In this document: piece by piece, positions 1,078 to 19,636 of the stretch
How the letters are laid out: each line of letters starts with the position of its first letter
Position numbering within the stretch: the first letter of the stretch is position 1
Virus record (IMG/VR): IMGVR_UViG_3300030119_000622
Span: 1 to 39,334 of that record
Source of the DNA: a virus
Length of the DNA stretch: 39,334 nt
Reading direction: 5' to 3' (one strand)
Made by a program: the position numbers and the translations under genes
Notes under the pieces: generated by a model
Seen by the model: only the letters and a program-made list of their open reading frames with translations
Databases searched by the model: none
Told to the model about the DNA's origin: nothing

Positions 1078-1422
1078 ATGAGACAAATCGAAAAAAACAT
1101 GAACCGAGCAATTAGAACTCAGTCTAACTGGTCTGGTTCAAATACAACAGTATTCACTACTGATGATGGTTTAGAGTCAACAGTTTACTTACATGGTAAT
1201 CATATTGCTACTTACTGGCATGATACCAGACAATTACAACTCAAAGATGGCGGTAGGCAATCCAATACCACTAAATCAAGACTAAACGCCCTATTGTACG
1301 AATTTTTTACAGGCACTCGCATTTTTCAAAAGAATTGGAACTGGTTTATTACTGATTTTACAGGTAAAAACGTGCTAGATTTCGTATCTGGTCGGGTTGT
1401 TTCTAACGAAGGTATCATTTGA
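1078..1422 (+). CDS. Hypothetical conserved phage protein (114 aa)
   Basis: The start is placed at the ATG at 1078 (MRQIEKNMNRAIRTQSNW), since upstream codons in frame would again translate the hairpin repeat. The 114-residue product contains a beta-rich region with STVYLHGNHIATY, then TTKSRLNALLYEF and a C-terminal hydrophobic helix-rich part. The combination 'VYLHGN.IA...' and 'TTKSRLNA' recalls a family of small hypothetical proteins frequent in T4-like cyanophages, with unknown function; this was not verified by search. The TGA stop (1420-1422) is embedded in a perfect palindrome. Confidence 0.65.
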   Translation: MRQIEKNMNRAIRTQSNWSGSNTTVFTTDDGLESTVYLHGNHIATYWHDTRQLQLKDGGRQSNTTKSRLNALLYEFFTGTRIFQKNWNWFITDFTGKNVLDFVSGRVVSNEGII

Positions 1423-1511: not shown

Positions 1512-1786
1512 AAAACTCAGTAATAGCAACGATTATCGTTATTACGTCCTAATGTACCATGAAAGTAAAATTTCGTCTTTATTTGCTGATAAATCGTTTA
1601 CAAGTGCATGTAAGCGGTTATTATATAAATGTATAAAAAAACATACATTGTTTCATTATACATTGCTTTACATTTACACTATGGAGGAATCTTTTATATA
1701 ATGGTCAATCTTGCTACTGTCTAAGGCGACAACCTATCAGAAAGTCAAGTACATATGATACAATGCCAGAAAATCCACACAGGGAG

Positions 1787-1818
1787 TTTTCCACAGGTTT
1801 TTCCACAGGTTTTCCACA
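1787..1818 (+). promoter_or_regulatory. Three tandem DnaA-box-like sites
   Basis: TTTTCCACA occurs exactly at 1787-1795, 1799-1807 and 1810-1818, i.e. at spacings of 12 and 11 bases, close to one helical turn. A degenerate AAATCCACA precedes them at 1771-1779. TTTTCCACA is the DnaA box reported for the Synechococcus origin and one base from the general TTATCCACA consensus. An alternative is that these are phage-specific repeats unrelated to DnaA. Confidence 0.6.
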
Positions 1819-2324: not shown

Positions 2325-2666
2325 ATGAATTTTTTCACACTTCCAAAAAAAGCAACAGCGTTTTCAATCCACACTAATACACAGTGGTTGGAAGTAAACA
2401 CAAGCACCGCTAAAATCCTAGAGGTTATCGAACAGCACCCTCAAGGCATTACACTCACAGAGTTAGCACCACTCGTTATAAAGGGTTTCACAGATAACAA
2501 TAAATCGTTATTGAAAGAAATGATTGACCCTTTACTCGTTGATGATCTAGTCAGAAAGTACACACCAGAGCATGACAAGAGACAGCGAGTCTACATTCCT
2601 ACAAGAATATCAAAGCGTTTCTTATTCAAGCAATTAGTCAAAGCATTTATTGACGCTAAGAACTAA
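2325..2666 (+). CDS. Possible winged-helix DNA-binding protein (113 aa)
   Basis: A 113-residue soluble basic protein. Residues about 20-80 alternate helices with a 'TAKILEVIEQHPQGITLTEL' segment, which looks like the helix-turn-helix part of a winged-helix domain (H1, then G-I-T-x-x-E-L before the recognition helix). A 'DLVRKYTPEHDKRQRVYIP' stretch follows that could be the wing. This is inference from pattern only; no catalytic motif is present. Directly upstream are a TTGACA promoter and a repeat-rich region full of palindromic sites, so an early regulator acting on those sites is plausible. It could equally be an unrelated small helical protein. Confidence 0.5.
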   Translation: MNFFTLPKKATAFSIHTNTQWLEVNTSTAKILEVIEQHPQGITLTELAPLVIKGFTDNNKSLLKEMIDPLLVDDLVRKYTPEHDKRQRVYIPTRISKRFLFKQLVKAFIDAKN

Positions 2667-5655: not shown

Positions 5656-5799
5656 TCAAGAATTGGGATCAAATTTATTAAGAAATACTATGAAGTAAGT
5701 CACTGCAACTATACAAATCAAGAAAAATAGTAGCATGAATACTCCATAGTATAGAAGAGAGGGAGGTTGGAATCCTGTATACCAACAAGAGACGGGCAT
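5656..5799 (-). CDS. Membrane micro-protein (47 aa)
   Basis: ATG at 5799, stop TGA at 5656-5658. The N-terminus is MPVSCWYTGFQPPSLLYYG, then a hydrophobic stretch of about 20 residues (roughly 20-40) and a polar tail NKFDPNS. It reads as a single-pass membrane protein. A gap of one base separates it from the next gene. It is the first complete gene of a leftward operon (47 aa, 27 aa, sulfotransferase 1, SGNH-like 1). I did not recognise it as any photosystem subunit. Confidence 0.55.
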   Translation of the reverse strand: MPVSCWYTGFQPPSLLYYGVFMLLFFLICIVAVTYFIVFLNKFDPNS

Positions 5800-5973
5800 T
5801 TCTACAGATTAGAAAAACGTCTCTGCCTAAGACCCGACTGGTAAGTCGATTCTTCCGAAGAAGCAGCACCACCTGTGTCTCATCACCTTAACCAGCTATA
5901 TGCCAGTAAGTTTATTCAGTCACTCCCGATGTAAGCGTCCTTACATAAATTATTATAATACATGTGAAATGAG
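5800..5973. other. Divergent intergenic region with three hairpins
   Basis: It lies between the leftward operon and the rightward oxygenase gene and is richer in G+C than its surroundings. Perfect stems are CGACT/AGTCG with loop GGTA (5835-5848), TTCTT/AAGAA (5850-5862; on the minus strand CTTC-UUCG-GAAG, a very stable tetraloop) and ATGTAAG/CTTACAT (5929-5946). TATAAT occurs on + at 5954-5959 and on - at 5952-5957, so divergent promoters are likely. On the minus strand an open frame without a start codon (5802-5879, ...GGAASSEESTYQSGLRQ...) ends two bases before the 47-aa gene and may be a remnant. Confidence 0.4.
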
Positions 5974-10771: not shown

Positions 10772-11363
10772 GATTTTGTTCTCTGGTTGTAGTATAACGT
10801 GGGGTGATGAGTTAGAAAACCGTATAGCAGATAGGTTTTCTACAAAATTTTACAAGCAACATGTCAATATTGCTGAGTGTGGGTTGTCAAATGACATGAT
10901 TGTCATGAAAACTATAGAGTACATAGAGAAATACCCTGATGTTGACTACGTAATTACTCAATTTACTGTTCCAAGAAGGTCAACATACTATGAAAATGAG
11001 TGGAAGACCATAACACCATGGGCAAAAAACACTCAATCAAAGGTATTTTATAAGTATTTGGACTCACAAGAGATGAGAAATATGAATTTGTGGAAAAATG
11101 TGTATATTTTAGATCAATATTTGCGTGACATACCGCATTATTTTTGGAGATTGAGCGAAGGTTCTGAAAAAACATCAAAAAATGACGGTATTTTTAAAAA
11201 GTTGGTGCCTTGGAGCGACATGGTGACCTTATATGACCTGATCGGCAAACCAAAAACACACCCCAAAAATTATGTTATTGGTCACCCTAGCAAAGAAGGT
11301 CACAAATTGATCGCTCAACACCTCCAAGGCGTTGTCCCGAACTCAGTATACCACTCTTCATAG
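10770..11363 (+). CDS. SGNH-hydrolase-like protein 5 (197 aa)
   Basis: The start at ATG 10770 gives MILFSGCSITWGDEL, matching the paralogues; a longer frame to 10569 would only translate the antisense of the aldolase. Block I Ser8, block II CGLSNDMIV, third strand YVITQFTVPRRSTYY, block V IGHPSKEGHKLIAQHL. It is closest to paralogue 6 (SGCSIT.GDEL, GHPSKEGHK). The final 16 codons run into the 3' end of sulfotransferase 2 on the other strand, a 49-base tail-to-tail overlap, so this tail may be recently acquired. No Shine-Dalgarno sequence is visible. Confidence 0.75.
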   Translation: MILFSGCSITWGDELENRIADRFSTKFYKQHVNIAECGLSNDMIVMKTIEYIEKYPDVDYVITQFTVPRRSTYYENEWKTITPWAKNTQSKVFYKYLDSQEMRNMNLWKNVYILDQYLRDIPHYFWRLSEGSEKTSKNDGIFKKLVPWSDMVTLYDLIGKPKTHPKNYVIGHPSKEGHKLIAQHLQGVVPNSVYHSS

Positions 11364-15403: not shown

Positions 15404-16031
15404 TGGATGTAGTATCACCTATGGTGATGAACTAAATCGAAGATTGGATGAAAGGTACAGCACTCTTGTTTCTAATCATTATGGATGTAACCACGTCAAC
15501 ATATCACAATGTGGAATTAGTAATGATGCGATAGTAAGAAATACAATCAGACATCTACAAAATACCAGTTCTCCTGACGTAGTTGTTATACAATACACAG
15601 TTCATCCTAGAATAGAGTATTTCGACAATCAACTCATACAGAAGTGGACACCACAGAGGGCAAACGATACACAGAGGAGTAGAGCATACTATTTGTCTGT
15701 CTACAATGACATCTTTGCAGCAGAGAACATGTGGAAAAATATATTCTTATTTGACTCATATTGTAAGAGTGTAGGACAGAAATATGTGTCATTGATTGCC
15801 GATCATTTTGAACGTATTATTGTAAAACCTGAAAAATTCTATAAAGGAGACGTTGGATATTGGAGAAGTATGTGTAAAGACTACAATCCTGTATACATTC
15901 AAAAAGAATTACTGGGTACTGAGTTTGAGCATCCAGAAAACTATGCTCAAGGTAGAAATGGTGGGCACCCTAGTAAAGAAGGTCACAAGGAATTGGCAAA
16001 TAAAACCATTGAGTTGATAGACGCTATATAA
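15384..16031 (+). CDS. SGNH-hydrolase-like protein 6 (215 aa)
   Basis: The start is one of two adjacent ATGs (15384 or 15387), giving M(M)SLCFSGCSITYGDEL. Block I Ser10, block II CGISNDAIV, third strand VVVIQYTVHPRIEYF, a NMWKNIFLF helix, block V GGHPSKEGHKELANKTI. It is closest to paralogue 5 (SGCSIT). The 3' end contains a TTGATA -35 box for the next transcription unit. It is the last gene of the island and is coupled to the carbamoyltransferase, which suggests that the two act on the same product. Confidence 0.75.
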   Translation: MMSLCFSGCSITYGDELNRRLDERYSTLVSNHYGCNHVNISQCGISNDAIVRNTIRHLQNTSSPDVVVIQYTVHPRIEYFDNQLIQKWTPQRANDTQRSRAYYLSVYNDIFAAENMWKNIFLFDSYCKSVGQKYVSLIADHFERIIVKPEKFYKGDVGYWRSMCKDYNPVYIQKELLGTEFEHPENYAQGRNGGHPSKEGHKELANKTIELIDAI

Positions 16032-17474: not shown

Positions 17475-19636
17475 TGGCACTGCAACAATTCACCAATCTA
17501 AATTTTGAGGACATCAAAACTTCAATAAAAGATTATCTTAGACAAAACTCAAACTTCAGTGACATGGATTTTGAGGGGTCAAACCTTTCTGTAATTGTAA
17601 ATCTACTCGCATATAATTCATATACCACAGCATATAATACTAACGCAGTTGTAAACGAGACATTCATAGACAGTGCCACACTAAGAGAAAATGTTGTATC
17701 ATTAGCAAGAAACATTGGATATGTGCCTAGATCAAGAAGGGCAGCAAGAATGATAGTTGATTATAGTATAACTGGTATTACATCAAGCACTAACACCATC
17801 ACATTTCAACCAGGTTTGATAGGTAATGGTGTTGTGTCAAATGTTAATTTTTTATTCTCCATACCTGAGAAGGTAACTGGAACTGCTTTAGGAGGTGAGT
17901 CTGCAGGCACCTTGGAAGTATTTCAAGGACAGTATCTTGAATCTAGATATGTTGTAAATGACTCTTTACCAAATCAAAGATATATTTTACCTAATAATGG
18001 TATAGACACTTCAACTATTAGAATCAAAGTAAAGGAAAATAATTCAAGCACTACAGCGACTGAGTATAAATTAGTTGATAATATCATAGGTGTAACATCT
18101 ACATCAAATATCTACCTTATACAAGAGACGACAGATGAGAAGTATGAGGTATTGTTTGGTGATGGGATATTCGGACAAAAATTGAGTAATGGTAATATTA
18201 TACAGATATCTTATATCAAGACTGAAGGTAAAGAAGGTAATGGCGTTTCAAATTTATTATTTTCAGGCACAATAACAAATGAAAATCTTGCCACAGAAAC
18301 AGATATATCTGCATCTATAACACCTCAATTTCCCTCACAAAATGGTGATGAGATAGAAGATATTAGAAGTGTCAGGTATTATGCACCTAGATTATATTCC
18401 TCACAGCATAGAGCAGTTACAGCAAATGATTATGAGGCGATAGTACCATCTGTATATCCTAATATAGAATCAATAAGTGCTTTTGGTGGTGAGGAATTGA
18501 CACCTCCCAAGTATGGTCGAGTATATATCGCTGCCAAACCTAAAAATGGATCTTTCTTATCAGAATTTACCAAAAGACAAATACTATCATCTCTAAAGAA
18601 TTATTCTGTGGCAGGTATAGTGCCAGAGATCATTGATTTGAAGTTTTTGTATGTAGAATTAGATTCATACGTATATTACAATTCAAACTTTGTTGGTGAT
18701 ACTCAAAACCTAAGAACTGATGTCATAAATGCCATGAGTTTATTTGCAAGTGGCACTGAATTGAATAAATTTGGTGGTAGATTTAAGTATAGTAAAGTTT
18801 TATCACTAATCGACAGGGTGAGTGACTCTATAACATCAAACATAACCACTGTTAGAATAAGAAGAAATTTAGTAGCACAATTGAATGTGTTTAGTCAATA
18901 TGAGATATGTTTTGACAACACATTCCATAGAAATGAGTCATCTTATAATATAAAGTCCACTGGATTCAACGTGTCTGGTGTATCTGGCACAGTGTACTTT
19001 TCTGATCAGCATGTATCTGGTGATACAGGTAATCTTTTCTTATTCCAACTTGACTCCGACACAAATGTCAAGATATTATCTTCAACATTTGGGTCTGTTG
19101 ATTATAAGAAGGGTGAAGTCATAATTGACACAGTAAACATCACTGGCACAGTTTTATCGGATAATATTATTGAGATACAGGCGATACCACAGTCAAATGA
19201 CATACTAGCGAGGAAAGAATTATACCTACAGTTTGATGTATCAAATAGTAATTTCTTCATGAGAGAAGATCCAATATCTACAGGTGCAAACACATCTGGT
19301 ACAAGGTACAATCCACAATCTAGTTACAGTAATGGTGCAAAAGTTAGAGGTGCTATCATTACGAGCACTGCTAGTTCCTCAAATCTGGTTGGGTATGTGA
19401 ATGGTAATCCATATTACGGACCTTTCCACTTCCACCCCACGACTGGTAAGAAGATGGTTGGTGCTATCCATGTTTCTACTCCTCATGATACGATATACGC
19501 TACTAAGGCAGAGAGTTTAGGAATTTCTGCAGACAGTGCTGCTATAGATAGTTCGTCAACAACAATGACATCGACACCACCATCTTCGTCATCTTCATCA
19601 TCATCCTCAAGCAGTAGTAGTGGATACGGATACTAA
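17474..19636 (+). CDS. 6: Baseplate wedge protein gp6 with C-terminal extension (720 aa)
   Basis: Forms the ring that joins neighbouring baseplate wedges. Residues 1-120 carry the N-terminal pattern NFEDIKTSIKDYLRQNSNF and FEGSNLSVIVNLLAYNSY. Residues about 285-450 are a J-type core with the diagnostic VRYYAPRLYSSQHRAVTAND and YEAIVPSVYPNIESI. T4 gp6 is 660 aa. The extra C-terminus (about 600-720) holds a NGNPYYGPFHFHPTTGKKMV motif, also found in part in the gp7-like neighbour, and ends in a poly-Ser linker followed by GYGY. It overlaps gp25 and the gp7-like gene by one base each. Confidence 0.88.
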   Translation: MALQQFTNLNFEDIKTSIKDYLRQNSNFSDMDFEGSNLSVIVNLLAYNSYTTAYNTNAVVNETFIDSATLRENVVSLARNIGYVPRSRRAARMIVDYSITGITSSTNTITFQPGLIGNGVVSNVNFLFSIPEKVTGTALGGESAGTLEVFQGQYLESRYVVNDSLPNQRYILPNNGIDTSTIRIKVKENNSSTTATEYKLVDNIIGVTSTSNIYLIQETTDEKYEVLFGDGIFGQKLSNGNIIQISYIKTEGKEGNGVSNLLFSGTITNENLATETDISASITPQFPSQNGDEIEDIRSVRYYAPRLYSSQHRAVTANDYEAIVPSVYPNIESISAFGGEELTPPKYGRVYIAAKPKNGSFLSEFTKRQILSSLKNYSVAGIVPEIIDLKFLYVELDSYVYYNSNFVGDTQNLRTDVINAMSLFASGTELNKFGGRFKYSKVLSLIDRVSDSITSNITTVRIRRNLVAQLNVFSQYEICFDNTFHRNESSYNIKSTGFNVSGVSGTVYFSDQHVSGDTGNLFLFQLDSDTNVKILSSTFGSVDYKKGEVIIDTVNITGTVLSDNIIEIQAIPQSNDILARKELYLQFDVSNSNFFMREDPISTGANTSGTRYNPQSSYSNGAKVRGAIITSTASSSNLVGYVNGNPYYGPFHFHPTTGKKMVGAIHVSTPHDTIYATKAESLGISADSAAIDSSSTTMTSTPPSSSSSSSSSSSSSGYGY

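Follow-up and report, generated by a model that had tools for sequence, protein, structure and literature searches.

Why should a T4-like phage carry, outside its genes, an ordered array of sequences that match the binding box of the host initiator DnaA? The question is raised by a viral DNA stretch of 39,334 nucleotides (hereafter the window, the whole stretch that was analysed), which its genes identify as part (39.3 kb) of the genome of a T4-like cyanophage, a virus that infects marine cyanobacteria. The T4-like assignment in the first-pass annotation was borne out by the gp6 and gp8 baseplate proteins and by a Kyanoviridae Gp96. A family search placed a carbamoyltransferase gene between the array and the baseplate genes, and reading of the sequences points to sulfotransferase-like and GDSL-like genes in the same island. 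A manA RNA, a known cis-regulatory RNA, was also found in this carbohydrate gene island (Rfam RF01745, 183.5 bits, window 5756-5945, minus strand). The features around the array are the following.

1081-1422, plus strand: Kyanoviridae Gp96 family protein (T4-GC 637 in isolate annotation), the syntenic marker left of the boxes
1680-2320, no strand assigned: conserved noncoding region of the window clade, with the boxes, TGTATCAWWTGATACA-like palindromes and a ~110-bp stretch
1719-1748, minus strand: leftward sigma70-like promoter, TTGACT (1748-1743) N18 TTAGAC (1724-1719), recognised by consensus match and alignment
1771-1779, plus strand: degenerate box-like AAATCCACA, doubtful
1787-1795, plus strand: DnaA box 1, TTTTCCACA(GG), invariant in 5/5 clade members
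1799-1807, plus strand: DnaA box 2, TTTTCCACA(GG), invariant in 5/5 clade members
1810-1818, plus strand: DnaA box 3, TTTTCCACA(GG), kept in 4/5 clade members and missing from L032
1878-1906, minus strand: second leftward promoter, TTGACA N17 TACCAT with TG, the same sequence in L032
2271-2299, plus strand: rightward sigma70-like promoter, TTGACA N17 CATACT, 5' of the 113-aa ORF
2325-2666, plus strand: 113-aa winged-helix protein, kept in L027, L126, L032 and L330

The three exact TTTTCCACA sites noticed in the first pass were confirmed on the plus strand, with start-to-start distances of 12 and 11 bp (starts at 1787, 1799 and 1810), head-to-tail and with gaps of 2-3 bp. GG directly follows all three on the 3' side, and TTTTCCACAGG is absent from the rest of the window. 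Together with two lone copies, at 11089 and at 15730 (minus strand), TTTTCCACA occurs five times in the window against 0.88 expected, a count reached in none of 100 shuffles. Apart from versions of it shifted by one or two bases, TTTTCCACA was the sole 9-mer of the window to occur three times in 50 bp, and complex 9-mer triples within 50 bp appeared in none of 60 dinucleotide-preserving shuffles. The three-box array is non-random, far beyond chance. The array had further been described as gene-free, AT-rich and preceded by a degenerate fourth site. It is indeed crossed by nothing but a mechanical 65-aa minus-strand ORF, which is no real gene, and an Rfam search of the array region returned nothing credible at the array. 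The AT-richness is slight, with 32% GC against 33-40% in the surroundings. The fourth site is present as AAATCCACA, but it matches the box at 6/9 bases only; its CCACACA part is kept in 4/5 relatives, never as a full box.

Conservation among close relatives was proposed in the first pass as a check, with loss of the sites as the refuting outcome. No such loss was seen in uncultivated viruses with the same context: each of the four that were fetched (L027, L032, L126 and L330) has at least two of the boxes and at most three. All five clade sequences, the window included, share boxes 1 and 2, and box 3 is missing from L032 alone. In an independent sample of 34 uncultivated loci, picked by gp96 only, a box cluster was present in 10, compared with a mean of 0.02 for 300 anagrams. 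Exact consensus, at least three clustered noncoding boxes beyond chance and retention at the locus, three marks of a cyanobacterial DnaA-box cluster, were found here. Other elements in and next to this noncoding region are also shared. A fold model of the 113-aa protein had a mean pLDDT of 70, with MarR-type matches, and this MarR-like winged-helix protein and the adjacent TGTATCAWWTGATACA-like palindromes are possibly a phage regulator with its operators. The ~110-bp noncoding element (TAGACTTAGGAGGGTGGC...GTGTCGAACATTTTCT) lies at about 1995-2100 in the window and in two copies in L330 (12545-12655 and 13112-13225); its core motif was absent from other viral contigs in an exact scan, and a conserved RNA fold for it was dropped as weak, with 1/10 pairs covarying. 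Farther right, a conserved CCCTAACCTACAAARGTWYCCC element, perhaps a late promoter of the baseplate operon, was found at 2836-2870 of the window, at about 53.7 kb in P-RSM4, at about 46.55 kb in P-SSM7, and in P-SSM4.

The match to a Synechococcus-type box, noted in the first pass, is well supported: TTTTCCACA is the published cyanobacterial DnaA box consensus, and such boxes were used with DnaA domain IV of Cyanothece in a DNA-binding study (PMC4674748). When one genome per prokaryotic species was scanned for three phased TTTTCCACA, 94 places were found, 16 of them cyanobacterial by title. The usual neighbour of cyanobacterial oriC is dnaN, and DnaN was the neighbouring protein at 6/10 of the cyanobacterial triples scanned, so that the same phased arrays stand beside dnaN; at L216, L255, L257 and L275, where dnaN was considered as a neighbour, the proteins proved not to be DnaN. 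A phased pair was present in 54/194 cyanobacterial genomes, mostly at one place each, and the reversed control gave 0. This comparison covers the oriC of cyanobacteria generally. The reading of the window sites as host-type DnaA boxes is well supported by their sequence, by the published consensus and by the arrays next to dnaN.

The first-pass annotation had regarded the array as something unusual in this phage, which turned out to be wrong: it belongs to a trait of the whole family. A search of annotated phages with the array sequence matched 108 records, 90 of them cyanophages, while the reversed sequence matched none; when the whole intergenic region was used, the isolates matched at the array alone. 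Whole-record scans of 19 T4-like cyanophages found 1-12 copies of TTTTCCACA per genome, and in 14/19 at least two copies lie within 60 bp, in clusters of 2-5 boxes. Tandem triples occur in S-RIM44, Sf-FR1 and Syn1, three boxes of mixed orientation in S-PM2, tandem pairs in S-CAM1 and S-SM2, and inverted pairs, with boxes 23-31 bp apart, in Syn9, Syn19, Syn33, S-SM1, S-ShM2, S-SSM5, P-SSM7 and Syn30. The cluster is absent from five of the 19, mostly Prochlorococcus phages (P-SSM4, P-HM1, P-RSM4, S-SSM7 and P-SSM2). When all 9-mers of 14 genomes were ranked blindly, according to how many genomes contain them as a close pair, TTTTCCACA came first with 11, and the runner-up had 6. All 11 fully mapped clusters sit 1.6-7.6 kb upstream of gp25-gp6, near gp96; those of S-PM2 and S-CAM1, whose records start elsewhere, are among them. 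Three of the clusters are located as follows.

Syn9, 52565-52597: cluster, inverted pair
S-PM2, 19231-19264: cluster of three boxes in mixed orientation
S-SSM5, 49313-49352: cluster, inverted pair

Arrangement and flanks differ between phages while the boxes persist; owing to shared ancestry, the cluster counts across phages are not independent events. A spurious protein motif behind the inverted pair was rejected, because the spacings (23, 24 and 31) do not all fit whole codons and because different phages have different small ORFs annotated at the pair. The cluster in T4-like cyanophages is not described in the open-licence papers searched, and it may have been noticed earlier elsewhere. Beyond this family, TTTTCCACAGG-N0-3-TTTTCCACAGG was found in at least 120 IMG/VR viral stretches (including loci L003-L122), compared with 3 for the reversed pattern; these stretches have very different GC contents, and AG mostly precedes the pair. 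Phased DnaA-box pairs therefore look widespread in uncultivated viruses, some gut microviruses included.

The boxes are accompanied by promoters. In the isolates, a conserved sigma70-like promoter, TTGACA-N17-TAAGAC/G, faces against the neighbouring genes, that is, in antisense, and its -10 is followed by the boxes after 43-84 bp in most of them and after about 100 bp in S-SM2; a rightward TTGACA-TATAAT promoter is nearby in many. No conserved ORF follows the antisense promoter, and a leftward protein-coding gene was therefore rejected. In the window, the promoter at 1748-1719 aligns with a TTGACT-N17-TAAGAG promoter of L126 and L330, which resembles that of the isolates. It stands left of the boxes, so that in the window clade they are upstream of the homologous promoter; relative to the second leftward promoter (1906-1878), the same boxes are downstream, 59 bp from its -10. 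P-RSM4 (53196-53224, minus strand) and P-SSM4 (51060-51088, minus strand) keep the antisense promoter without a box cluster, suggesting that the antisense transcript may have a role without DnaA.

What, then, might the boxes do? Origin, titrating site and regulated promoter had all been offered in the first pass, and the evidence leans to an origin or a promoter over titration. We tentatively favour, as the likeliest single reading, that the locus, of which T4-like cyanophages conserve one per genome, is a host-DnaA binding site and would serve as one of their replication initiation sites or the only one. This reading is preferred because there is one locus per genome, the boxes stand head-to-tail with gaps of 2-3 bp, an antisense promoter is adjacent, and the boxes are free in their position relative to that promoter. 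Its main rival, to which we give a lower and rather doubtful standing, is that no origin is present and that host DnaA acts on the antisense promoter or its divergent rightward counterpart, as activator or as block, which would couple early transcription of the phage to the DnaA state of its host. The downstream placing of the boxes at 43-84 bp in most isolates, the divergent promoters nearby in many and the two phages that keep the promoter alone agree with such control, and there are reports from E. coli and lambda that DnaA affects transcription, or is bound, where its boxes follow a promoter (PMC4674748, PMC3985674). However, the boxes vary in where and how they stand to the promoter (tandem or inverted, and in the window clade upstream), the antisense promoter is followed by no conserved ORF, and each genome has a single cluster. 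A box side that changes between clades would be less expected of a fixed promoter operator than of an origin.

A decoy that titrates free host DnaA and lowers host initiation could draw on the clustering of consensus boxes and on the many copies of the phage genome present late in infection. We consider it improbable, because the boxes are few (2-5 in a cluster, 1-12 per genome) and strictly placed, and neither the syntenic position nor the promoter association is required for titration. No larger datA-like array was seen; a datA-like locus is a large high-affinity box cluster with an IHF site, and three exact boxes stand here. Equally improbable is that some other protein, of host or phage, binds the motif, or that it is a functionless relic of shared sequence. 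DnaA binding is predicted here from the sequence match, and the array has a winged-helix gene and palindromes as neighbours in the window clade; against this, the exact 9-bp match recurs in divergent phages whose flanks and arrangements differ, and also at cyanobacterial oriC, and the palindromes differ in sequence from the boxes.

If the locus is an origin, host RNA polymerase would transcribe or load beside the boxes early in infection, host DnaA would bind them as a small oligomer, the AT-rich DNA nearby would open, and a phage or host helicase would be loaded there; replication might later switch to the recombination-dependent mode for which T4-like cyanophages carry genes. Against the origin reading, Syn9 encodes its own gp59 helicase loader, and the array region is only mildly AT-rich. 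The boxes are also not universally needed, since five phages have no cluster and P-RSM4 and P-SSM4 keep the promoter alone. Cumulative GC skew did not turn at the array in S-RIM44, P-SSM7 and S-CAM1, nor at the Syn9 pair; as the skew follows gene direction, it is uninformative as an origin test. The replication start of the abundant T4-like cyanophages is not established, and the only prediction that we found is a single theta origin in the cyanomyovirus Syn9 (PMC2984593). The cluster offers a concrete, conserved coordinate in cultured phages that is directly testable. It suggests that T4-like cyanophages depend on, or sense, the host initiator DnaA, and it marks a putative replication start site or host-controlled switch.

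The locus resembles three known systems in different respects. With the cyanobacterial oriC of S. elongatus PCC 7942, Anabaena PCC 7120 and Cyanothece 51142 it shares the identical 9-bp TTTTCCACA and direct repeats at 11-12 bp, noncoding and usually at one place per genome, but it lies in a lytic T4-like phage among phage genes, with no adjacent dnaN or dnaA, and many phages have the inverted-pair version. A direct parallel exists in lambda, whose antisense promoter pO at ori-lambda is followed by DnaA sites that were footprinted in vitro; when pO is lost, lambda replicates less (PMC3985674). By consensus match, the isolates and the second leftward promoter of the window (1906-1878) have the same layout, an antisense promoter with DnaA boxes downstream. 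Unlike lambda, which has a dedicated initiator O and iterons, the cyanophage locus has no recognised counterpart (the annotations of the isolates seen show no lambda-O-type initiator next to the site, and the window clade has the winged-helix ORF and palindromes nearby), and its boxes are exact consensus and multiple. With T4, whose origins (oriF, oriG and others) are promoter-linked, the cyanophages share the T4-like replication and recombination gene set and the association with a promoter. T4 has several origins, and use of DnaA is not known for it; in phage T2, TTTTCCACA occurs only once. More tentatively than for the origin reading itself, we propose that T4-like cyanophages, unlike T4, may start replication at one conserved origin that recruits host DnaA and is paired with an antisense noncoding early transcript, and that some Prochlorococcus phages may have lost the DnaA part and kept the promoter.
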